Position numbers and translations under genes: made by a program. Under the pieces are notes generated by a model. It was not told where the DNA came from and did not search any database. It saw only the letters and a program-made list of their open reading frames with translations. From Armatimonadota bacterium (GTDB lineage Bacteria > Armatimonadota > UBA5829 > DTJY01), in assembly GCA_017993055.1 (NCBI GenBank), contig JAGONM010000027.1:1-52437 (forward strand): DNA of 52,437 nt, read 5' to 3'. This document shows positions 6,550 to 34,130 of the stretch, in pieces. Position 1 is the first letter of the stretch. Each line of letters opens with the position of its first letter.

Positions 6550-6579
6550 TGTAACGTGAAATGATGCGGTCGCGTCTAA
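6550..6579 (+). promoter_or_regulatory. Candidate ECF-type promoter in the 6487-6664 gap
   Basis: TGTAACG (6550-6556), 16 bases, then CGTCTAA (6573-6579). This resembles ECF sigma promoters (an AAC-type -35 box and a CGTC/TCTAA-type -10 box). A second TGTAACG lies at 10725-10731 in the same cluster. The rest of the gap holds a weak hairpin (CACCG/CGGTG) after the isomerase stop and nothing else I can identify. Confidence 0.35.
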
Positions 6580-6664
6580 TCAGTGAAGGCACCACCCGGA
6601 GTGGCGGGGCGTGCCTCCCGCGGGCGAGATGACGCTCGCGCACCGTCGAAGGGAGGAATCCGAG

Positions 6665-7426
6665 ATGGCGGCAAGACAGCGCATTTCACTCTATCTGATA
6701 GCATCGGCTTTGGTCTTCCTGATGTCGGCCCAGGCGGTCGCGCAGCAGGCAGGGGCCGGAGAGAAGCGGGTCACCATCAGCCTGCAGGACACCCCGGTCC
6801 GCAGCGCGATAGACATGATCTTCCGCGAAGCGGGCGTCAACTATGCCTTCGAAGGCGGCACTCAGGGCACGGTCAACGTCAACCTCACGGATGTACCGTT
6901 CGATCAGGCCGTGGCGATCATACTTCGCAGCGCCGGCCTCACGATGCGCCGTGAGAACGACACGTACATGATCGGTCCGAAGAAAGAAGTCGAGGCCTAT
7001 GTCGAGACGGCCCCGACTCTTGCGGCCGAAGAGACCGAGATCGCACGTACGACCTCGCTGGAGAAGATCCGCGTGAACTTCGCCGACGTCATGGAGATCG
7101 GCGCGATCTTCGGCGCCGAGTACCGCGGCGGCAGCGGTTTCGGCGGAGGCGGATACACCGGCGGTTACGGCATGACCGGAGGAATTGGCGGCTACGGTGG
7201 AATGGGTGGAATGAGTAGCTACGGTGGAATGGGCGGAATGGGCAGCTACGGCATGACCGGCGGCATGGGCGGCTATGGAAGCAGCTACGGAAGCGGCATG
7301 GGCGGCTACGGCAGCAGCTACGGCGGCGCCATGGCAGGCTACGGCAGCAGTTACGGCGGGATGAGTGGGTTCGGCGGTACAGGCACCTATGGCACTGGCA
7401 ACACCGGAATCCGCAGGCGATGGTAG
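6665..7426 (+). CDS. Secreted STN-domain protein with Gly/Tyr/Met-rich tail
   Basis: 253 residues. A signal peptide (about 1-28, ending SAQAVAQQ) is followed by a secretin/TonB short N-terminal (STN) domain at about 35-100: ISLQDTPVRSAIDMIF, then VNVNLTDVPFDQAVAIILRS and a final strand with YMIGPKKE. A spacer follows. The last 95 residues are a low-complexity tail of GGYG, SSYGG and GGMGG units, ending in IRRRW. STN domains normally sit at the front of secretins or TonB receptors, but no pore domain exists here. The protein is therefore free-standing, perhaps a surface or fibre-forming protein. I chose ATG 6665 for its GGGAGGAAT SD and signal peptide. The ECF sigma gene follows 51 bases later. 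Confidence 0.75.
   Translation: MAARQRISLYLIASALVFLMSAQAVAQQAGAGEKRVTISLQDTPVRSAIDMIFREAGVNYAFEGGTQGTVNVNLTDVPFDQAVAIILRSAGLTMRRENDTYMIGPKKEVEAYVETAPTLAAEETEIARTTSLEKIRVNFADVMEIGAIFGAEYRGGSGFGGGGYTGGYGMTGGIGGYGGMGGMSSYGGMGGMGSYGMTGGMGGYGSSYGSGMGGYGSSYGGAMAGYGSSYGGMSGFGGTGTYGTGNTGIRRRW
7126..7408 (+). repeat. Imperfect tandem Gly-Tyr-Ser/Met repeat within the STN protein
   Basis: Codons for GGYGSSYGG, GGMGGYG and similar short units recur irregularly across 280 bases. At the protein level this is silk- or glycine-rich-adhesin-like low complexity. Confidence 0.8.
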
Positions 7427-7477
7427 TCACCCGTAACGGCGGAGTCGCGCGTCATCCTGGACAGGAGTGATCCGTGC

Positions 7478-8050
7478 ATGGGCTTTCGCGATAGCTCGGA
7501 GGCGGCTGCCCGAGCGACCGATCCCGATCTGGAGTTGGTCCGGGCGTTTGCCTCCGGGCAAGCCGATGCATTCGATCAACTGTACGATCGGCACAACCGG
7601 TTCGTGTACAATGCCTGTCTGGGGATACTGGGCGATCCTGACGATGCGCGGGATGCGGTGCAGGAGACCTTCGTGCAGCTCTGGAAATCGCTGCCGAAGT
7701 TCAGCGGCCGAAGCAAGTTCTCGACCTGGCTATACCGCATCGCGGTCAACAAGTGCATGGACTTCCTGCGGGGGAAGCCCAAATGGGCGGGCGAGCTGCC
7801 CCTCGACCTTCCGTCAGACAGCGGCCCGCGTTCCGACGGGCTTCTGGAGCAGCAGGTCAGACAGACCGTCCTCAGGCTGAAACCCGAGTATCGGGCGGTC
7901 ATGGTTCTGTACTATTTTCAGCAGCTCTCCTATGATGAGATCGCTGAGAGCCTGGGATGCTCCTTCGATCAGGTTCGGATCAGGCTCTATCGGGCAAGGC
8001 AGGCGTTCCGGAAGCTCTATACCCAGGGGGGTGTCGGCAGTGAAGTGTAA
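7478..8050 (+). CDS. ECF RNA polymerase sigma factor
   Basis: 190 residues. Region 2 is at about 22-90, with AFDQLYDRHNRFVYNACLG and DARDAVQETFVQLWKSLPKF. Region 4 is at about 125-180, with YRAVMVLYYFQQLSYDEIAE and QVRIRLYRARQAFRKL forming the -35-reading helix-turn-helix. Regions 1 and 3 are absent, as in the extracytoplasmic-function class. The start is ATG 7478, with GGAGTG about 9 bases upstream. It overlaps the anti-sigma gene by 11 bases, which marks them as a regulatory pair. It probably controls the surrounding envelope genes, with the candidate promoter at 6550-6579 as one target. Confidence 0.95.
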   Translation: MGFRDSSEAAARATDPDLELVRAFASGQADAFDQLYDRHNRFVYNACLGILGDPDDARDAVQETFVQLWKSLPKFSGRSKFSTWLYRIAVNKCMDFLRGKPKWAGELPLDLPSDSGPRSDGLLEQQVRQTVLRLKPEYRAVMVLYYFQQLSYDEIAESLGCSFDQVRIRLYRARQAFRKLYTQGGVGSEV

Positions 8051-8903
8051 GCAAGTTTCCGCTCTGATCTCCGACTACGTTGACGGTCGCCTCAGTGAGA
8101 GGACCGCCCGCACGGTTCGCGACCACGTATCCTCATGCGCGCTCTGCCGGGAAGAACTGGCCGCCGAGAAGGCATCCGTCAATGCATTGACATCCCCGAT
8201 GACCGTATTCGCCGCCCCCGATGTCCTCTCGCAGGTCAAGCGTCGGGTCAGTGCCACTCCGGTCGGTTCTCCGCGCCTCGGATGGCAGTGGGCGGCGGTC
8301 GTCCCAGTCTTGTTCTGTCTTGCTTGGTTTGCGTTTGCCGTCTCGAATCAGCAGGCGCCTCCGACGGGCGGCTCTGATCGTCCGGCGGTCGTGAATATGC
8401 CCTCGGAGCCAGCTCCATCCGATCAGTCGGAGGTGGCGAAACCGGCGCTGCCATCGGAGCCTGAGCGCCCGGCCCCGAGGCCGAAGCGGATCGTCGCGAG
8501 GAAGTACCCGACGAAGAGGGAGAGGCCCGCGCCGCCGCCTGCTTCTCCCGAGGCACTTGTGCCCGAGCCTGCCATCGAGTACCTCGTCGTCTACAATCAC
8601 CCCGGGCTGGGCGACGGCATGGACGGCCTCGCGGTCACGCCCGCCGATGCGGCGGAGGAGCCTGGCCCGAGTTCCTATTCGATACGCACAACCGATGAGT
8701 CTACCGGCGAGGTGACAGGCCTCTCCGTCTACATCCGCCGCGAAGGCGACTCAGAAGAGAACGCCAGAGTAGAGTTCCGCAGCGAAAGCGCTGGTTCTGA
8801 CCAGGACGAGCGCGAGAGGAGTTCGATAGATGAGAAGCCGCTTGATCATGCTTACGGCATTGCTTGTGGTGATCTGCGCCGGTGTGGCGTCGGGGCAGGT
8901 TGA
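8040..8903 (+). CDS. Membrane-bound zinc-finger anti-sigma factor
   Basis: 287 residues. The N-terminus carries the ZAS zinc-binding pattern: Cys3, then His29-xxx-Cys33-xx-Cys36 in DHVSSCALC. One membrane segment lies at about 83-102 (WAAVVPVLFCLAWFAFAVS). It is followed by a long Pro/Ala/Lys-rich linker and a small outer domain at about 180-260. The cytoplasmic zinc domain should hold the ECF sigma until a signal from the outside releases it. I chose GTG 8040 because an AGGGGGG SD lies 9 bases upstream and the overlap with the sigma gene is short. The end overlaps the next gene by 74 bases, an unusually long overlap. Confidence 0.88.
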   Translation: MKCKQVSALISDYVDGRLSERTARTVRDHVSSCALCREELAAEKASVNALTSPMTVFAAPDVLSQVKRRVSATPVGSPRLGWQWAAVVPVLFCLAWFAFAVSNQQAPPTGGSDRPAVVNMPSEPAPSDQSEVAKPALPSEPERPAPRPKRIVARKYPTKRERPAPPPASPEALVPEPAIEYLVVYNHPGLGDGMDGLAVTPADAAEEPGPSSYSIRTTDESTGEVTGLSVYIRREGDSEENARVEFRSESAGSDQDERERSSIDEKPLDHAYGIACGDLRRCGVGAG

Positions 8904-9675
8904 GAATGTGGCGGCCGTGAAGGCTGCCGATGACGAGCCCCGAATCGCGGACCTTCAACTCGCCAATACCGGCATACTGCAGGCCCTCGATATTCTGCTC
9001 GCCGGCACGGGTCGCAACTACATGGTCGCCCAGGGATCGGATGTCAGCGGCACAGTTAACGTCACCCTGCAGGATGTGCCTCTCGATACGGCGGTGAAGA
9101 CCGTGTTGCGCAGCGCCGGGCTTACGGCCTCCAGGGAGAACCGGACCTACTTCATCGAGCCGATCAAGCCGCCGGTCGTCGCGATGGTGCCTATGACACG
9201 CGCTCCGACGCTCACCGCCAAGCCGCCCATCGGCACCATGGATGTGAAGCCGTCGGGTACTGAGAAGGGCGTCAAGTTCGACATTCTGCTGGACAAGGCC
9301 AACGTGCTGGAGGCCATGCACCGCATATTCGAATCGGTCGGCCAGAACTATGTCATAGACACGGGCCTCGACAGCGCCTGGGCCGGTCCTCTCGGCCCGA
9401 GAATCAGCGCCCGCATGCGAGGCATTACCCTCGACGAGGCCGTCCAGGCCCTCGGCAGGAGCGCAGGTCTCGTGGTTGCCCATATCGGCAGCACCTACTC
9501 GGTTCGTCCGCCGGACGGCGCCCTGCCGTTCACATACGTTCCCGGCATCGGCGCGAAGCCGGGCAATCAGCTCGAGACCGCGCCGGTCTGCGGCAGGTGC
9601 GGGCGGGCTCTCGATCCGTCGTGGCTCTACTGTCCTCAGTGCGGCGGGCGGACTCGGGCCGCGACGACCAACTGA
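8830..9675 (+). CDS. Exported protein with two STN-like domains and a C-terminal zinc ribbon
   Basis: 281 residues. A signal peptide occupies about 1-22. The first STN-like domain is at about 38-110 (GTVNVTLQDVPLDTAVKTVL). The second is at about 147-226 (LLDKANVLEAMHRIFESV, then ITLDEAVQALGRSAG). The last 30 residues carry two CxxC pairs (Cys254-GR-Cys257 and Cys268-PQ-Cys271), a classic zinc ribbon. A zinc ribbon on an exported protein is unexpected. The cysteines may bind metal or form disulfides outside the cell. ATG 8830 has GAGGAG upstream and lies inside the end of the anti-sigma gene, so the two are coupled. It is related in domain type to the protein at 6665-7426. Confidence 0.8.
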   Translation: MRSRLIMLTALLVVICAGVASGQVENVAAVKAADDEPRIADLQLANTGILQALDILLAGTGRNYMVAQGSDVSGTVNVTLQDVPLDTAVKTVLRSAGLTASRENRTYFIEPIKPPVVAMVPMTRAPTLTAKPPIGTMDVKPSGTEKGVKFDILLDKANVLEAMHRIFESVGQNYVIDTGLDSAWAGPLGPRISARMRGITLDEAVQALGRSAGLVVAHIGSTYSVRPPDGALPFTYVPGIGAKPGNQLETAPVCGRCGRALDPSWLYCPQCGGRTRAATTN

Positions 9676-9860
9676 AGCGGTTCGGACAATACCGTCTACT
9701 CCTGAAGACCCGTCCTCGAACGGATGCATGCAGACCGCTTGCTGAGTATCCCCACGCTTAGTGAAGGCTTGCTTAGTAAATATTTCCCCTGTTTCCGCGC
9801 CTTTTTTTCCCAAACACGCCCTTTTGGCCCGAAACTTGCAATATGACCACGTGAGTACCG

Positions 9861-9898
9861 GCCCTGTCCGCCGACCGATGAGGTCGGCAGGACCGGGC
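9861..9898 (+). promoter_or_regulatory. Long hairpin in the 9676-9916 leader
   Basis: GCCGACC (9870-9876) pairs with GGTCGGC (9882-9888) across a GATGA loop. The stem continues through GTCC/GGAC and GCCC/GGGC with one bulge and one mismatch. It lies 19 bases before the start of the PEP-CTERM gene, close to its ribosome binding site. The rest of this gap holds a T7 run (9804-9810) and a repeated GCTTAGT. Confidence 0.5.
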
Positions 9899-9916
9899 GG
9901 AAAGGTCGTGGTCCAT

Positions 9917-10705
9917 ATGAGAGTTCATCATTGGATCGGAGCGTTACTCTGCGTCCTGATGCTCTGCCACCCCGTGGCCTGCGAGGCCGCGACGGCGCGC
10001 GTCGGGATGCCCCCGGGATCATTCCTGACCAAGCCGGTCAGTAATCCCGAGGATCTGGCGAGGCTCATCGAGACCGACAAGCGTGTTGCAGAGAGGTATT
10101 CGCGTCTCTTCTTCATGAATGCCGAGAAGCTCGCCGCATACGTCAGGACGAACCTGCGAGTTGGTCAGCTGAACAGCACGGGAAAGTACACCACCTATTA
10201 CATCTCAAAGGGTGACCGCATCCTCGTGCATCAGAAGACCTTCAAGGCAGGTCGCAGGATGCTGTTCGGTCCTGATGGTAGACCCATCATGGATCTCGAG
10301 TGCGGCAACCCGCTTGTCAAGACGCTGCCACAGGTGGTTGCGCAGGTGAAGCCTGTGCAGCAGGAGATCGTCCTGCCGCCGGCGGAAGCGCCGCCTGCGG
10401 TCGTCGAGCTTCCGACAGAGCCGCCGGTTGTCGAGGCTCCTGTTCAGGAGGCCCCGGTGATCGCGCAGCAGATGACCGTGCCTGAGCCGCAAGTCGAAGT
10501 CCTGGGCGTGCCGCCGGTGGAGTTCTCGTCGGCAGCTTCACTGCTCAGCAAGGCAATCCTGCCGGGCCTTCTCACTGCCGCGGCGGCATCGGCCGTCTTC
10601 AGCGGCGGCGGAGGGACTCCCGTGCCTGAGCCGTCGGGGATGATCGCTCTCGGCTCGTGCGTGATCGGGCTTGCGATGGGTGTCCGATTCCGTCGCAGAC
10701 GCTGA
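9917..10705 (+). CDS. Exported PEP-CTERM protein
   Basis: 262 residues. The signal peptide covers about 1-25. Residues 30-135 form a folded part (GKYTTYYISKGDRILVHQKT). Residues 140-200 are a Pro/Val/Glu-rich linker of repeated PPV/VEAP units. The end is a textbook PEP-CTERM tail: VPEPSG at 236-241, a membrane segment (IALGSCVIGLAMGV), then the basic RFRRRR. Such tails are recognised by an exosortase, which would have to be encoded elsewhere. The protein would be delivered to the cell surface or an extracellular matrix. I chose ATG 9917 because it opens the signal peptide. The frame is open from 9761, but that stretch holds the hairpin. Confidence 0.85.
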   Translation: MRVHHWIGALLCVLMLCHPVACEAATARVGMPPGSFLTKPVSNPEDLARLIETDKRVAERYSRLFFMNAEKLAAYVRTNLRVGQLNSTGKYTTYYISKGDRILVHQKTFKAGRRMLFGPDGRPIMDLECGNPLVKTLPQVVAQVKPVQQEIVLPPAEAPPAVVELPTEPPVVEAPVQEAPVIAQQMTVPEPQVEVLGVPPVEFSSAASLLSKAILPGLLTAAAASAVFSGGGGTPVPEPSGMIALGSCVIGLAMGVRFRRRR

Positions 10706-10765
10706 TCCGCAGTAACCAGGCAGTTGTAACGCTGATTCGATCCGAAATCGCTACATGACTAATAC

Positions 10766-10802
10766 CGCACCGGGCTGCAGCCACCCCGTGCATCCCGGTG
10801 CG
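10766..10802 (+). promoter_or_regulatory. Perfect 9-bp hairpin after the PEP-CTERM gene
   Basis: CGCACCGGG (10766-10774) pairs with CCCGGTGCG (10794-10802). No T-run follows, so it is not a standard terminator. It is the first element of a 378-base non-coding stretch (10706-11083) that also carries TGTAACG at 10725 and the structured element at 10857-10997. Confidence 0.5.
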
Positions 10803-10856
10803 GGACGGCCCTTGCGCATCACTCACGCGCAGGTCCGACGCAGATCGCTCGTCACT

Positions 10857-10997
10857 GGAGGTCACAGGGGCACCCTCCGGCGGCATATGCAGGTCCGTTT
10901 CCAGGACGGGAGTCCGTGGGTATAACGCCGTTGGCGTTCACCCTCACCCGTATCGGACCTGCCGCATGATGACCTCATGCCGCTGGAAGACACCTCC
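10857..10997 (+). ncRNA. Candidate structured RNA / riboswitch-like leader of the M48 peptidase gene
   Basis: A 9-bp stem (GCAGGTCCG 10889-10897 with CGGACCTGC 10954-10962) closes a three-way junction. One arm is GGAC-GGGA-GTCC (10904-10915), with a GNRA-type loop. The other runs 10916-10947: GTG/CAC and GGGT/ACCC, then AACGCC-GTT-GGCGTT. A fourth hairpin follows (GCATGA 10964-10969 with TCATGC 10975-10980). GAGGTCA (10858-10864) can pair with TGACCTC (10970-10976), which competes with that hairpin, and GGAGGT (10857-10862) can also pair with ACCTCC (10992-10997). Such exclusive pairings suit a switch. It matches no riboswitch consensus I remember. Pairing was read by eye. Confidence 0.5.
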
Positions 10998-11083
10998 GGC
11001 AATGCACAGGGAGTTTTTCCTGTCGCCTGCGATATCGCCCGATTGAAGGGCGGTTCGCCGATGCATGAGAGGAAGGTGCCGCT

Positions 11084-12262
11084 ATGCGATTCGTAACGCG
11101 CGCCCTGGTCAACACCGTTCCATTATTCGTCTTTGCATTCGTGGTCCTCTTGGCGCTGCCATCCGCGGCGCCCGCGCAGAGTATCGGAGACGCCGAGATT
11201 CTGATGGGGCGCAGGGCTGTCCGAGAGGTCGAGAAGAACATCAAGCTGGTCGAAGACCCGGATATCCTGCTCAGGGTCAGGACCATCGGCGCTGCGGTCG
11301 CCCATGCCGCCAATTCCCTCGAGGTGCCGTCAACCTATGGCACGGGCTCGATCACCGAGTTCAAGTACACCTTCAAGGTGATTGACACCGATGAAGTCAA
11401 CGCCTTCTGCCTCCCGGGGGGATACGTATACATCCACAAGGGTCTGCTCGACTATGTCGAGTCCGACCACGAACTGGCGGGCGTGCTCGCCCACGAGATC
11501 GCACACGCGGCCCACCACCACATGGCCTATCTCATCAGAGAGCAGGGCCGGCTCGACACGCGCATCGCACTCGTCCTCCTCGCAGGCATAGTCGGCAATG
11601 TTGACACGAAGGACCTGGGTCACGTGCTGGTCGGCGCCCAACTCGTCAGGATCGCCTTCTCCAGCGGATACGGTCAGGAGGCAGAGGCCGATGCCGACCG
11701 CACGGCGATAGCCTATGTGCAGGCGGCGGGGTACAACCCGGTCGGTCTGCTGACCTTCATGGAGCGCCTGGCGCGCGACCACGCCGCCAAGCCTCAGATG
11801 GACATGGGTATCTTCCGCACTCACCCGCTCTCGACCCACCGCGCCCGGGCGATCATCGCACAGATCGAGGGACTCGGGCTGCCGCTCAGGCGGCGTGAAG
11901 TCACCAACGCGGTCAAGGCCGTCGCGGAGAAGATCGAGGTTGACGGCAGACGGGAATGCTGTGTCAAGCTCGGCGGCAGCGTGATCCTCCGCCCCGCTCC
12001 GGTAGGCGGCGTACTCACCGCCGAGGAGCGCGCCGATGCCATCGCCGCCGGGATCAACCGGCTGCTCGATCAGGAGCCTCCGATTCGCCGGATCAAGCTC
12101 GATTCCGACGGGCGTACCGTGTCGGTCTGTGGCGAGCCTGTGTTCGCGGTCACGGAGCAGGACGCCGCTCTGAGTGGCAAGAGTCCGGCGGAACTCGCCG
12201 AGCAGGCCGCAGAGACCCTCCGGACCTTCGTATGGCGTCAGACGGTTTTGGCCACGTACTGA
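11084..12262 (+). CDS. Exported M48-family metallopeptidase
   Basis: 392 residues. A signal peptide spans about 1-32 (ending SAAPAQS). The catalytic zinc motif is His137-Glu-x-x-His141 (LAHEIAHAAHHH), and a downstream Glu near 199 in GQEAEADADRTA is the third ligand. This is the pattern of Oma1/BepA-type M48 peptidases, which check or degrade damaged envelope proteins. The last 95 residues (from about 295) form an alpha/beta domain (RIKLDSDGRTVSVCGEPVFAV) with no clear name. ATG 11084 has a GAGGAAGG SD. Its place in an ECF sigma cluster fits a role in envelope quality control. Confidence 0.9.
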   Translation: MRFVTRALVNTVPLFVFAFVVLLALPSAAPAQSIGDAEILMGRRAVREVEKNIKLVEDPDILLRVRTIGAAVAHAANSLEVPSTYGTGSITEFKYTFKVIDTDEVNAFCLPGGYVYIHKGLLDYVESDHELAGVLAHEIAHAAHHHMAYLIREQGRLDTRIALVLLAGIVGNVDTKDLGHVLVGAQLVRIAFSSGYGQEAEADADRTAIAYVQAAGYNPVGLLTFMERLARDHAAKPQMDMGIFRTHPLSTHRARAIIAQIEGLGLPLRRREVTNAVKAVAEKIEVDGRRECCVKLGGSVILRPAPVGGVLTAEERADAIAAGINRLLDQEPPIRRIKLDSDGRTVSVCGEPVFAVTEQDAALSGKSPAELAEQAAETLRTFVWRQTVLATY

Positions 12263-12300
12263 TCCCGGGCTCTTGTGCCCATGCTCGGCCCTCAGTATGT

Positions 12301-12329
12301 TTGGCGCGCATCCTCCGCGTGGGTATACC
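12301..12329 (+). promoter_or_regulatory. Promoter of the Spy-like gene
   Basis: TTGGCG (12301-12306), a 17-base spacer, then TATACC (12324-12329), 35 bases before the start codon. Confidence 0.6.
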
Positions 12330-12363
12330 CTGTGTGATCCCCAAACACGGAGGTGGAATCGAG

Positions 12364-13113
12364 ATGAGACGGATTTTGTATGTTGTTGTGGCGATGCTCC
12401 TTCTGGGAGTGCTGCCGGTTCTTGGCCAGAACGATCCCAATGTGGGTGGCGGCATGGCTCCCCAGCCGGGGATGCCCGGCATGGGCGGGCAGGGAATGAT
12501 GGGTGGAGGCATGGGCCGCGGCATGATGGGCGGCATGGGCGGTGGCCAGGGAATGATGGGTCCCGGGGCGATGGGCGGCATGTGCCCCATGATGGGCGGT
12601 CAGGGCATGATAGGCGGCGGTGGCATGGCGCCCGACCAGTGCCTGATGATGCACATCCAGTCGCTTGGACTGACTGACGACCAGATGAGCCGACTGCGAC
12701 CCAGCATGACAGAGTACCAGAAGGAGATGATCAGCCTGAACAGCCAGATTCAGGTCAAGCAGATCGATCTCCATACTATGCTGATGGCGAACAACGTGGA
12801 CATGAAGAAGGTAGAAACCCAGGTGCGGGACATCAATCGCATGCAGGGTGACCTTCAGCTGGCCGGGATTCGGGCATTCGAGGCCGGAAAGAAGATACTC
12901 ACCCCGGAGCAGACCCGGATGCTTCACCAGCAGATGGGCAACTGCACCGGCTCCTGCCCCATGATGGGTGCCCCGGGCATGATGGGTGGCCGGGGTGTGA
13001 TGGGTGGTCAGGGCATGATGCGCGGTCCGGGCATGGCGGACGGAATGCCGGGATCCGGGGGCATGGCTCCCGGCGCTCCCATGACGCCTTCGGCTCCTCC
13101 GCCCAACCGGTAG
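12364..13113 (+). CDS. Met/Gly-rich Spy/CpxP-like periplasmic protein
   Basis: 249 residues. The signal peptide is at about 1-21. Residues 25-90 are packed with GMMGGGM, GMGGQGM and MCPMMGG units. Residues 95-195 form a helical LTxxQ-type domain (SLGLTDDQMSRLRPSM, ILTPEQTRMLHQQM), as in Spy and CpxP chaperones or metal sensors. The tail again has CPMMG and GMMGG repeats. Methionine clusters with CxxxxCPMM motifs suggest copper or silver binding in the periplasm, an inference from composition. ATG 12364 is preceded by GGAGG. It is the last gene before the hairpin at 13157-13190 and has its own promoter. Confidence 0.8.
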   Translation: MRRILYVVVAMLLLGVLPVLGQNDPNVGGGMAPQPGMPGMGGQGMMGGGMGRGMMGGMGGGQGMMGPGAMGGMCPMMGGQGMIGGGGMAPDQCLMMHIQSLGLTDDQMSRLRPSMTEYQKEMISLNSQIQVKQIDLHTMLMANNVDMKKVETQVRDINRMQGDLQLAGIRAFEAGKKILTPEQTRMLHQQMGNCTGSCPMMGAPGMMGGRGVMGGQGMMRGPGMADGMPGSGGMAPGAPMTPSAPPPNR

Positions 13114-13156
13114 TGGCATGCGGCCTGCCGCAGGTCAGTGCAAGGAACGAATAATA

Positions 13157-13190
13157 AGGCAGGCAAGCGGTAAGCTTGCCTGCCTTTGCT
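13157..13190 (+). terminator. Terminator at the end of the envelope cluster
   Basis: A perfect 12-bp stem (AGGCAGGCAAGC 13157-13168 with GCTTGCCTGCCT 13174-13185, loop GGTAA) is followed by TTGCT. On the minus strand it is followed by TTATTATT, so it may work both ways. Confidence 0.85.
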
Positions 13191-13275: not shown

Positions 13276-13367
13276 GGAGCGGTGTCCGAGTTGGTCTAAG
13301 GAGCACGACTGGAAATCGTGTAGCGGGGATGACTCGCTCGTGGGTTCGAATCCCACCCGCTCCGCCA
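13276..13367 (+). tRNA. tRNA-Ser (anticodon GGA)
   Basis: A 92-base class II tRNA. The acceptor stem is GGAGCGG with CCGCTCC, followed by G and an encoded CCA. The anticodon stem CACGA/TCGTG encloses the loop CTGGAAA with anticodon GGA at 13311-13313, which reads UCC and UCU. A long variable arm, as required for serine, follows. The T-arm is GTGGG-TTCGAAT-CCCAC. It has its own promoter and stands alone. Confidence 0.97.
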
Positions 13368-30096: not shown

Positions 30097-31389
30097 CTAT
30101 CGCGCTTCATATAGCAGCAGATCGTTGGCCCGCTTCGCTGCTATCCTGCACACTTCCTCGGCGGTAGCCTTGCCGAGCAGCGCCGGCGCAATCTCGCTGT
30201 AGATGATGAAGTTCATCTCCGGCGAGCACTCCACTTTTGGAAGCGGACGCCCATACTCGATGGCGTCAATGAAAGCCTGCTTGTTCTTCGGCGGCGCGTC
30301 CAGGTACAGATACGCGCCCGATTCGGCCACCGACCGGCGGCTCGGGATGACCTGTTTCTTCTCCGCAAAGTGCTTCTGCATGCTCGGCGAACTCATGAAC
30401 TTGACCAGTTCCCAGGCTTCCTTCTTGTGCCTGCTGCCTCGCAGTATCCCCCAGCACGCCCCTCCGACAAATGATGCTCTCTGCTTGCCTCTGGGAAGCG
30501 GGGCGCAGTCGTACTCAAACGTGGTTATCTCCTTCGGGAACACGATTCCTGCCGCCCAACTCCCGCTGACATACATGCCGATCTGGCCGTTGGTGAACAT
30601 CTTCTGAGAACCGATGTCGGCGGCGTCGGCGGCGGTCGGAGCGACGTGGTGCTTGTTCCTCAGGTCGCACATCCACTGGAGACCTTCATACGCCGCCGGC
30701 TGATCGAGGATGCACCTGGTGTTGTCCGTGTTTAGCACGTCGCCGCCGTTCTGCCAGACATATGTATGCCAGGTCGAGTCCGGCACGCAGCCCCATTGGT
30801 CGAGCTTGCCGTCGCCGTTGAAATCCTTCGTGAGCTTCCGTGCGACCTCCAGGAACTTCTTCCAGTCCCATGACTCGTCGGGGTACGGGATGCGGTGCTT
30901 GTCGAACATGGTCTTGTTGTAGTACATGGCGGAGATGTCCACATCGCCCGGGATGGCGTAGATCTTGCCCTTGTACTTGCCCCAGCCCTCGACCGCCGGC
31001 CCGTAGAAGTCGCTGATGTCGAAATCGGGATCGCTCTCGATGTACGGTCCCAGGTCCTCGAGCAGGTTCTTGGCGGCGCTGGGCGTGAAGTAGTTGGAAC
31101 TGACATGGCTCACGTCCGGCGCCCGCCCGCCGGCTGTGGAGATCAGGAGTTTGTCGAACATCCGTATCCAGGGGACCGATTCCACCTCGACTCGGATATT
31201 CGGATGGGTCTTGTAGAACTCCGTCTCGAACGCCTGCTTGTAGAAGTCGAGGTCTTCCTGCTTGTCCCAGACGGTCATTCGCAGGACGACAATCCCTTCT
31301 TCGCCCTTAGGCTTGCTGCATCCGCCCAGCGCAGTTGCTGCCAGCAGAATCAGAGACAGAGCCGTCAGTGTTCTTCTCATGTTGCTCAT
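30097..31389 (-). CDS. Extracellular sugar-binding lipoprotein 1
   Basis: 430 residues of the family 1 solute-binding proteins. The signal peptide ends in the lipobox LGGC with Cys24. VDISAMYYNKTMFDKHRIPYP and GDGKLDQWG are strongly conserved with the two upstream paralogues, the second as a DxNxDG calcium-type loop. INPxxT-like ligand contacts cannot be read by eye. It captures a sugar outside the cell for the two permeases downstream. ATG 31389 was chosen, and ATG 31392 and 31380 are close alternatives. This copy lies nearest to the permease genes and follows copy 2 by 13 bases. Confidence 0.9.
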   Translation of the reverse strand: MSNMRRTLTALSLILLAATALGGCSKPKGEEGIVVLRMTVWDKQEDLDFYKQAFETEFYKTHPNIRVEVESVPWIRMFDKLLISTAGGRAPDVSHVSSNYFTPSAAKNLLEDLGPYIESDPDFDISDFYGPAVEGWGKYKGKIYAIPGDVDISAMYYNKTMFDKHRIPYPDESWDWKKFLEVARKLTKDFNGDGKLDQWGCVPDSTWHTYVWQNGGDVLNTDNTRCILDQPAAYEGLQWMCDLRNKHHVAPTAADAADIGSQKMFTNGQIGMYVSGSWAAGIVFPKEITTFEYDCAPLPRGKQRASFVGGACWGILRGSRHKKEAWELVKFMSSPSMQKHFAEKKQVIPSRRSVAESGAYLYLDAPPKNKQAFIDAIEYGRPLPKVECSPEMNFIIYSEIAPALLGKATAEEVCRIAAKRANDLLLYEAR

Positions 31390-31402
31390 CACGACGTATT
31401 AT

Positions 31403-32725
31403 TCACTGCGCAGGCCCGTCCATCCTCCTGCGCGGACGGTTGTACATCAGCAGATCGTCCACGATCGGCGTGACCCGAAGGCAGGTCTCCTTCGCCGACT
31501 CCTTCCCAAGGATCGCCATGGTGATCTCGTTGTTGATGATATCATTCATCTCTCGAGAGCATTCGATGTTCGGGATCACGCGGCCGTACTTGATCGCGTC
31601 TATGAACACCTCCTTGTTCCGGGGCCTTCCCTTCAAGAGCAGATATGCACCGGATTCGGCGACCGATCTCCGACTCGGGATGATATGCTGCGTCCTCGCA
31701 TAGTAGCCCTGGAAGGTCTGCGACGTCATGAACTTCACCAACTCCCATGCTTCCTGCTTGTGCTTTGATTTGCTCAGTATGCCGAACGCCGCGCCTCCCA
31801 TGAAGGCCGCGCGCTGTTTGCCCATGGGGATGGGAGCGGCATCGTAGTCGAAGGTCGTGACCTCCTTCTCGAAGATCAGCGGCGTGGCCCAGCTTCCGCT
31901 GACGAGCATCCCGATCTGACCGTTCGTGAACATCTTTTGAGGGCCGATGTCTGCGGCGTCGGCGGGAGACGGGGCGACACGGTGCTTGCTTCTGAGGTCC
32001 GCCATCCACTGCAGAGCCTCGTACGCCGCGGGCTGATCGAGCAGACACCGCTTGTTGTCTGCGGAGACGATATCGCCTCCGTTCTGCCAGATATAGGCCT
32101 GCCACCAGGTGTCGGGAACGCAGCCCCACTGATCGAGCTTGCCGTCGCCGTTCGTGTCCAGCGTGAGCTTCTTGGCGGCCCACAGCAACTTGTTCCAGTC
32201 CCACGTCTCATCCGGGTACGGAACACCGTACTTGTCGAACATAGTCTTGTTGTAGTACATCGCGTAGATGTCTACGTCGCTTGGAAGGCCGTATATCCTT
32301 CCATCGTACATGCCCCAGCCTTCGACTGCTTCGTTGTAGAAGTCGTTGATGTCGAAAGTCGGGTCGTTCTCGATGTACGGGTCGAGGCATTCCAGCAGAC
32401 CCTTCGCCGCGCACGGGGTGAAGTAGGTGGAGTCCACCCGGCTCACGTCCGAGGTCCGCCCGCCTGCTGTGGAGATGAGCAGCTTGTCGAACATCCGGCT
32501 CCAGGGGACCAATTCGATGCTTACCCGGATGTTCGGATGATCCTTGTAGAAGACCTTGAGCGACTCGTTGTAGAAGCCGAGTTCTTCCTGCTTGCCCCAC
32601 ATGATGAGCCGCAGGTGCACGACCTCAGGCGTCTGTGATCTCTTACAGCCGGACAGAACGATTGCGGCTGCGACGAGAACGATGATCGCTGATATGGCTC
32701 GCGGGTGGACGGATGACGGGTGCAT
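31403..32725 (-). CDS. Extracellular sugar-binding lipoprotein 2
   Basis: 440 residues and clearly a paralogue of copies 1 and 3: VDIYAMYYNKTMFDKYGVPYP, NGDGKLDQWGCVP, MFTNGQIGMLVSGSWA and IIPSRRSVAESGAYL are shared. The signal peptide ends in LSGC with Cys27. I chose ATG 32725, giving a normal lipoprotein signal. The frame is open to ATG 32764, but that would overlap the previous gene by 25 bases and add 13 atypical residues. It probably binds a sugar similar to that of copy 1. Local differences lie at the N-terminal lobe (VHLRLIMWGKQEELGFYN). Confidence 0.9.
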   Translation of the reverse strand: MHPSSVHPRAISAIIVLVAAAIVLSGCKRSQTPEVVHLRLIMWGKQEELGFYNESLKVFYKDHPNIRVSIELVPWSRMFDKLLISTAGGRTSDVSRVDSTYFTPCAAKGLLECLDPYIENDPTFDINDFYNEAVEGWGMYDGRIYGLPSDVDIYAMYYNKTMFDKYGVPYPDETWDWNKLLWAAKKLTLDTNGDGKLDQWGCVPDTWWQAYIWQNGGDIVSADNKRCLLDQPAAYEALQWMADLRSKHRVAPSPADAADIGPQKMFTNGQIGMLVSGSWATPLIFEKEVTTFDYDAAPIPMGKQRAAFMGGAAFGILSKSKHKQEAWELVKFMTSQTFQGYYARTQHIIPSRRSVAESGAYLLLKGRPRNKEVFIDAIKYGRVIPNIECSREMNDIINNEITMAILGKESAKETCLRVTPIVDDLLMYNRPRRRMDGPAQ

Positions 32726-32739
32726 GCGCCTGACCTGCA

Positions 32740-34032
32740 CTATTCCCGGTTCTTCCTGGGCCATAAGAGGCCGTTCACTCTCTTGGCCGTCCTCTTGCAG
32801 GCCGACTCCGCCGTTTCTGTGCCGATCTGCAGGTTGTTCAACTCGTTACCGATTATACTGTTCATCTCCTCGCTGCACGGGACCCTCGGCAAAGTGCGCC
32901 CGTATTCGATGGCGTCGAGGAACACCTTTCGGTGCCTCGGTGGGCCTGGGAGGTCCAGGAACGCGTTTGACTTGGCGACGGACATGCGGCTGGGGATTAC
33001 CTGTTCTTTGATCGCGCGCTCCCTCAGCGCCTCCTTGCTGACCATGAACTTGACCAGTTCCCAGGCCAACTGCTTGTGCTTCGAGCCCCTCAGCACCGCA
33101 TACGATGCGCCTCCGTAGAAGGTGGCCCTGCACACCGGACCCTTCGGGACCGGCGCGACATCGTACTCGAAAGCGCCCTTGATGTCCTTGTCGAAATACA
33201 GCGGCACGGCCCAGCTCCCGCTGAAGTACATTCCGGTCTGGCCGTTCGTGAACATCTTCACGGAGCTGATGTCGGCCATGTCTTTGGCGGTCGGCGCGAC
33301 GTGATACTTGTTGCGCAGGTCGGCCATCCACTGCAGGCCCTCGATGGCTTCGGGCTGATCGAGCAGACACCTTGTCTTGTCCTCACTGATGATTTCGCCC
33401 CCGTTCGCCCAAACGTAGGACTGCCACCAGTTCTGGCTGGTGCCCCACTGGTCCAACTTGCCGTCGCCGTTTGTGTCCAGAGTGAGCTTCCTCGCCGCTG
33501 CCAGATAGTCGTCCCAGCCCCACGTCTCATCGGGGTAGGGGACGTTGTATCGGTCGAACATCGTCTTGTTGTAGTACATCGCGGTAACGTCTACGCCGGC
33601 CGGGATGGCGTAGAGTTTTCCCCGGTACTTGCCCCAGCCCTCGACGACTTGAGGGTAGAAGTCGCTGAGATCGAAATCCCTATCCTTCGCAACGTACGGT
33701 CCCAGGTCCTCCAGGAGTCCCTTCGATGCTGCGGGAACGAACCACATCGAGCTGATCACGCTGGCATCCGGCGCCTTGTTGCCCGCGGTGGCGATGAGCA
33801 GTTTCTGCAGAGTCCGTTCGTTGACGATGTATTCGAGGCGCACCTTGACGTCCGGGTGGGCTTCGTAGAATCTCTTGAGCTTGTCGTTCCATTTCTGCTC
33901 GTCGGCTGCCGAGCCCCAGACGACCATGCGCAGGTGAACGACCTCGCTCTCTTCCTTCTTTTGCACGCAGCCGCACAGCATGGAGAGCAGTATCGGGAGT
34001 ATCAGACAGAGCGCGAGTCTCGACTTGGTCAT
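32740..34032 (-). CDS. Extracellular sugar-binding lipoprotein 3
   Basis: 430 residues. The signal peptide ends in LCGC with Cys22. It shares VEGWGKYRGKLYAIP, MYYNKTMFDRYNVPYPDETW, NGDGKLDQWG and MFTNGQTGMYFSGSWAVP with copies 1 and 2. It differs more than they do from one another (for instance VNERTLQKLLIATAG in place of VPWIRMFDKLLISTAG), so it probably branched first. I chose ATG 34032; TTG 34041 is an alternative with poorer spacing. It opens the operon. The 89 bases upstream hold no promoter I trust. Confidence 0.9.
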   Translation of the reverse strand: MTKSRLALCLILPILLSMLCGCVQKKEESEVVHLRMVVWGSAADEQKWNDKLKRFYEAHPDVKVRLEYIVNERTLQKLLIATAGNKAPDASVISSMWFVPAASKGLLEDLGPYVAKDRDFDLSDFYPQVVEGWGKYRGKLYAIPAGVDVTAMYYNKTMFDRYNVPYPDETWGWDDYLAAARKLTLDTNGDGKLDQWGTSQNWWQSYVWANGGEIISEDKTRCLLDQPEAIEGLQWMADLRNKYHVAPTAKDMADISSVKMFTNGQTGMYFSGSWAVPLYFDKDIKGAFEYDVAPVPKGPVCRATFYGGASYAVLRGSKHKQLAWELVKFMVSKEALRERAIKEQVIPSRMSVAKSNAFLDLPGPPRHRKVFLDAIEYGRTLPRVPCSEEMNSIIGNELNNLQIGTETAESACKRTAKRVNGLLWPRKNRE

Positions 34033-34130
34033 GTTCGGCAAAGCTTCCTATCGTGCGATCACTGGTAGCATATTCGCTGACAACCCCCGCCAATCCTCGT
34101 GCTTCTGCGCGCACTTGCTCATCGAGACTG

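Follow-up and report, generated by a model that had tools for sequence, protein, structure and literature searches.

STN domains are best known from pores and from FecR-type regulators, of which they form part. Here, we describe a gene cluster of a bacterium of the little-studied phylum Armatimonadota (NCBI GenBank assembly GCA_017993055.1, contig JAGONM010000027.1) in which two exported STN-domain proteins, STN1 and STN2, are encoded with an extracytoplasmic function (ECF) sigma factor and its anti-sigma factor. The whole stretch analysed (52,437 nucleotides, positions 1 to 52,437 of the forward strand) is referred to as the window. Seven plus-strand genes were confirmed where a sequence-only reading had placed them (6550-13190), and the ECF sigma/anti-sigma pair named in that reading is upheld by Pfam matches to sigma regions 2 and 4 and to zf-HC2. 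The promoter and the first four genes are as follows.

6550..6579, plus strand: ECF-type promoter TGTAAC-N17-CGTCTAA before STN1, the best site in the window (22.1 bits)
6665..7426, plus strand: STN1, an exported PilQ-type N0/STN protein whose Gly/Tyr/Ser/Met-rich tail ends in RRRW (Pfam STN 1.3e-14)
7478..8050, plus strand: ECF sigma factor (Pfam Sigma70_r2 8.7e-22, r4_2 2.9e-14)
8040..8903, plus strand: anti-sigma factor (zf-HC2 9.5e-11) with one membrane helix, a long linker and a periplasmic tail predicted as strands
8830..9675, plus strand: STN2, an exported protein in which a zinc ribbon at the C-terminus follows two STN-like stretches (Pfam STN 6.1e-14; zinc ribbon weakly matched)

These four genes (6665-9675) look like one operon because the sigma and anti-sigma genes overlap (8040-8050), as do the anti-sigma and STN2 genes (74 nt, 8830-8903); a gap of 241 nt separates STN2 from the next gene. 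STN1 corresponds to the N0 domain and the beginning of N1 in PilQ-type secretins (TIGR02515, positions 2-116, 1.6e-16), followed by its tail, and is ~51% identical to its closest kin, an STN protein in the pilus operon of sister genera. The sequence-only reading had both proteins made of STN domains only; Pfam STN matches agree in genes 1 and 4, but STN2 also carries the zinc ribbon, which that reading missed along with the second STN-like stretch. An AlphaFold2 (AF2) model of STN2 (mean pLDDT 47, usable for residues 38-111 only) gives these residues the N0 topology (beta-alpha-beta-beta-alpha-beta-beta), and a similar order of elements at low confidence for residues 137-226. Best Foldseek matches to this model include secretin N0 domains, that of PilQ among them, as well as a putative FecR-type anti-sigma factor and the signalling domains of PupR and FecA. 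The zinc ribbon is kept in STN2 and its counterparts in genus g20, and is degenerate in genome G060. By Pfam, neither STN1 nor STN2 has a barrel or plug domain or a TolA/TonB-like C-terminal domain, and no TonB-dependent receptor combining STN with a beta-barrel was found among the neighbouring genes (open reading frame list and Pfam). The membrane helix of the anti-sigma factor, whose gene adjoins the ECF sigma gene, is visible both in the sequence and in the AF2 model, in which the zf-HC2 part is confident and the tail forms strands without STN topology at low confidence. A FecR-type STN subdomain was not found at the anti-sigma C-terminus, where Pfam returned zf-HC2 only; FecR_C matches are present in the third gene of other operons.

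Conservation of the gene order was followed in 20 loci picked by sequence alone (the 19 closest sigma homologues in relatives and one more). An STN-domain protein lies in the same gene string as the sigma and anti-sigma genes in 13 of the 20: eight by direct STN calls (L156, L157, L159, L160, L163, L166, L167, L170), four by a third gene with STN or FecR_C matches of weak to moderate strength (L155, L161, L164, L168), and L169, which is counted for a third gene that is nearly a copy of that of L168 and is not independent of it. The STN gene is present in both of the best named relatives, HRbin16 and a Chthonomonas calidirosea metagenome-assembled genome, and in none of the other 78 loci, mostly from other phyla, that the same homologue search gave. 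The anti-sigma/STN overlap is 74-77 nt in three sister-family genomes (G005, G007, G009), as in the window, and 101 nt in HRbin16. In a sigma tree, the window sigma falls inside a 24-member clade restricted to the phylum (support 0.99), with an STN gene beside 17 members, a count to be read below the less biased 13/20 since some members were fetched because of their STN gene. The STN protein of the sigma operons in this clade has no Gly/Tyr tail. On these comparisons, the order sigma - anti-sigma - exported STN is judged to be ancient in Armatimonadota. The gene order expected in relatives was thus found for this part and not for the seven-gene set.

The promoter at 6550 stands well above the next best site in the window (13.8 bits), and reaches 17.0 bits with an independent matrix trained, against circularity, on sigma-operon promoters of other genomes only. 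Tested on STN genes outside sigma operons, this matrix finds a site scoring at least 10 before 17/43 such genes versus 40/811 other genes, and at least 8 before 18/43 versus 90/811 (Fisher p 7e-7). Sites seeded by TAAC-N16..18-CGTC alone nearly all go on as CGTCTWWA or close to it, and enrichment is confined to spacings 16-18. The site is carried by 14 of the 21 Gly/Tyr-tailed STN genes in the test versus 4 of the 22 untailed ones. In genus g20, five species carry exact sites, assigned by position, at three places: before the sigma operon, before a lone STN gene and before the pilM operon; another three species have one or two of these sites. We infer that the 6550 promoter is read by the sigma factor of this operon, and STN1 is likely to be a target gene. 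Sequence comparison demonstrates both the architecture (gene order, gene overlap, sigma clade) and the promoter enrichment. The sequence-only reading had proposed TGTAACG, at 6550 and at 10725 before the leader of a downstream M48 peptidase gene, as a shared -35 box. Three copies occur in the window versus 2.0 expected, which is chance, and a matching -10 element follows the 6550 copy alone; nothing in the region before the M48 gene, the 10725 copy included, scores above 6.0 bits. The 6550 copy belongs to a convincing ECF promoter, present upstream of the sigma - anti-sigma - STN part and absent before the M48 leader, and a box common to gene 1 and M48 was rejected.

STN proteins without a pore had been called unusual, and in this phylum they are not: the loci retrieved from relatives (L065-L170) contain 83 called STN proteins. 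A Gly/Tyr/Ser tail like that of STN1 occurs in 42/83 of these versus 0/811 other proteins, and many of the tailed genes sit between pilX and the secretin gene in pilM-N-O-X operons. The operon pilM-N-O-X-[STN]-secretin, followed by aroC/K/B or rplJ/rpoB, is common in the phylum (L066-L069, L075-L079, L092 and others) and was not found in the source genome, whose three secretins are one Tad-like, one type-II-like and one PilQ that has an N0 domain itself (genome-wide PF00263 secretin barrel matches on contigs C1, C2 and C19 only). A C-terminal W, F or Y, often after Arg, ends 41/83 STN proteins (24 in W) versus 68/951 others, which recalls the C-terminal aromatic residue of outer-membrane proteins. 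At one contig start (L118), a Gly-rich STN protein, cut by the contig end, runs into CFKCGQ, perhaps a tail joined to a zinc ribbon.

Two exact promoter sites were found in the genome, at 6550 and at G000:C18:36999. The second lies directly past two genes whose products, of 340 and 476 aa, are taken by their sequence for a putative DAHP synthase and a putative radical-SAM-type protein, and 50 bp upstream of a gene for a 135-aa exported-looking protein, which is followed by genes for a 211-aa protein and a repeat protein. In a sister genus (G003:C174), sigma - anti-sigma - STN lies between matching flanking genes (identities 74%, 69% and 49-60%), and the operon therefore appears to have moved in one lineage, leaving a promoter behind; alternatively, the sigma operon may have been gained independently in G003. 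The genes after C18:36999 are a possible further target of the sigma factor.

The remaining features of the cluster and its border are the following.

9917..10705, plus strand: PEP-CTERM surface protein (VPEPS - hydrophobic stretch - RFRRRR)
11084..12262, plus strand: exported M48 peptidase of BepA/LoiP type (Pfam 9.6e-30)
12364..13113, plus strand: Met/Gly-rich Spy-like protein (Metal_resist 30.0 bits, cut-off 29.2; Spy match)
13156..13186, minus strand: terminator-like inverted repeat 3' of the Spy-like gene, with a 13-pair stem and then a T-rich tail on the minus strand
13276-13364, plus strand: tRNA gene, directly past the terminator-like repeat

An Rfam scan of the region returned nothing besides the tRNA. 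The identities given to these three proteins hold: Pfam M48 and Metal_resist/Spy matches agree for two of them, and the C-terminal motif of the PEP-CTERM protein is plain in the sequence, with a Pfam match below the cut-off (16.6 versus 20.7 bits) and an exosortase in the genome (1.2e-54). Genes 6 and 7 resemble the BepA/LoiP M48 peptidases and the Spy chaperone by domain matches, but score far under the equivalog cut-offs and lie outside the sigma module. The closest PEP-CTERM and M48 homologues occur together in two sister genera (G002:C3 and G004:C30) with no sigma gene beside them, adjoining apart from one further PEP-CTERM gene. M48 orthologues within the family are 49-53% identical, and the Lrp-type regulator and aminotransferase genes found further along also stay close to M48 in G002 and G003. 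The Spy-like gene was not beside M48 in the sister genomes inspected. By these comparisons, PEP-CTERM and M48 form a separate neighbourhood kept in the family, and the Spy-like gene is a local neighbour. Elsewhere in the window (30097-34041, minus strand), three consecutive similar genes for ABC-transporter sugar-binding lipoproteins are apparently a tandem triplication.

We read genes 1-4 as an autoregulated ECF operon forming a pore-less cell-surface-signalling circuit, and consider this an even call. The zf-HC2 domain of the anti-sigma factor would hold the sigma factor at the membrane, and STN2, a separate exported protein, would bind the periplasmic tail of the anti-sigma factor and either protect that tail from proteolysis or expose it. 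A changed envelope state would release the sigma factor, which would then read GTAAC-N16/17-CGTCTWA promoters, both that of its own operon and those of STN genes with a Gly/Tyr tail (STN1, for example). The products of these tailed genes are related to the STN protein encoded immediately upstream of the secretin in type IV pilus operons. Such a split system, in which STN2 would complete and gate the anti-sigma factor, is proposed because no STN match falls in the anti-sigma factor, whereas two STN-like stretches are encoded by the gene that follows; we infer the STN2-anti-sigma contact and the nature of the signal. In a broader form, which we consider unlikely, this would be a phylum-specific split FecR family, in which a single free periplasmic protein would combine the STN part of the anti-sigma factor with the receptor's signalling domain and gate a dedicated ECF sigma; the regulon would consist of STN surface proteins with Gly/Tyr tails, joined in some lineages by the type IV pilus machine, and the state of the secretin or pilus would be sensed by STN-STN contacts instead of by a TonB receptor.

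Several observations weigh against the signalling circuit. Seven of the 20 close sigma homologues have no STN gene, and the counts come from related species and are not independent. STN2 sequences are highly divergent (15-30% identity), the zinc ribbon is absent from all three STN proteins of family f2, and the AF2 models of STN2 and the anti-sigma factor are mostly of low confidence. Promoters of different ECF sigma factors resemble each other, and 8/43 STN upstream regions still reach score 8 when reversed. Counted over whole genomes, the exact pattern is no more frequent than a reversed-pattern control; the regulon is therefore small or the exact pattern too strict, and support rests on enrichment by gene class.

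The strongest rival holds that the STN proteins are outputs only, made under envelope stress as non-signalling accessory subunits of the secretin or pilus (extra N0 rings or scaffolds), with the anti-sigma factor controlled otherwise, e.g. by direct proteolysis. We regard this as possible but somewhat doubtful, and the data do not separate it from the split system. The position of STN1-type genes directly before the secretin gene in pilM-N-O-X operons of many relatives suits it, as do the promoter before lone STN genes and, in g20, before pilM, and the binding of STN domains to one another in secretins (PMC11637429). Yet the STN protein of the sigma operon is of a different kind (untailed, with a second STN-like stretch and in some cases a zinc ribbon), its gene overlaps the anti-sigma gene as expected of a regulator and not of a pilus part, and the genome described here has no pilus operon of that type. 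The first suggestion, a single surface-assembly or envelope-stress system built from all seven genes, is very unlikely: the genes share a strand with short gaps, the PEP-CTERM, M48 and Spy-like products are all envelope proteins, and an M48 paralogue adjoins an STN gene in three genomes, but the sigma module lies elsewhere from PEP-CTERM/M48 in sister genera, and the ECF promoter is missing before the PEP-CTERM, M48 and Spy-like genes. A conserved seven-gene set was accordingly rejected, relatives keeping two smaller modules instead; what survives of the proposal is that the sigma, anti-sigma and STN genes belong together behind the ECF-type promoter upstream of gene 1. The M48 paralogues directly beside STN genes are those of G002, G004 and G017 (L071, L072, L084). 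Mere coincidence is hardly credible: every genome has numerous ECF genes, STN genes are widespread and in most genomes the exact motif is just as frequent as the control, but neighbours by chance and a random promoter match would not account for the conserved order, overlap and sigma clade, or for enrichment limited to the right spacing and gene classes.

A search of one literature collection found no paper on this topic. In this phylum, STN domains appear to serve as exported proteins in their own right, linked to a single ECF sigma clade through operon and promoter, which provides a first regulon hypothesis for an ECF sigma factor of Armatimonadota. The shared promoter element before the switch and many STN genes makes a pore-less surface-signalling circuit testable, and the cluster is a simple system for asking how a lone STN domain controls an anti-sigma factor, as argued for the cleaved FoxA domain.

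In PupR/FecR systems, the STN fold is the end of the anti-sigma factor and also the tip of the outer-membrane receptor. STN1 aligns with the N0 domain of PilQ-type secretins (TIGR02515, PDB 4ar0), which the STN2 model also matches; unlike PilQ, STN1 has no secretin barrel and scores 60 bits versus the PilQ cut-off of 284. The FecI-FecR-FecA and PupI-PupR-PupB systems share with the present operon an ECF sigma factor, a membrane anti-sigma factor and a periplasmic domain of STN fold (PMC7186176, PMC11637429), whereas here there is no TonB-dependent receptor, no STN subdomain was found on the anti-sigma factor, and STN is a separate gene. The periplasmic part of PupR combines an all-beta piece with an STN subdomain, and binding to the receptor's STN domain requires both (PMC7186176). 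In FoxA, the signalling domain is cleaved and shields the anti-sigma factor FoxR (PMC11637429). The nearest precedent is VreA-VreI-VreR (PUMA3) of Pseudomonas aeruginosa, in which VreA, likewise a small exported barrel-less STN protein encoded before its own ECF sigma gene, is paired with a membrane anti-sigma factor, and the regulon includes secretion-system genes (PMC2729926). VreA has a TolA/TonB-like C-terminal domain in place of the Gly/Tyr tail of STN1 or the second STN-like stretch and zinc ribbon of STN2, and unlike in VreAIR, the anti-sigma factor here is of zf-HC2 type and is followed by one more STN gene. The operon is accordingly not a separate new kind of system but a variant of cell-surface signalling, real and conserved in part and supported by its promoter.

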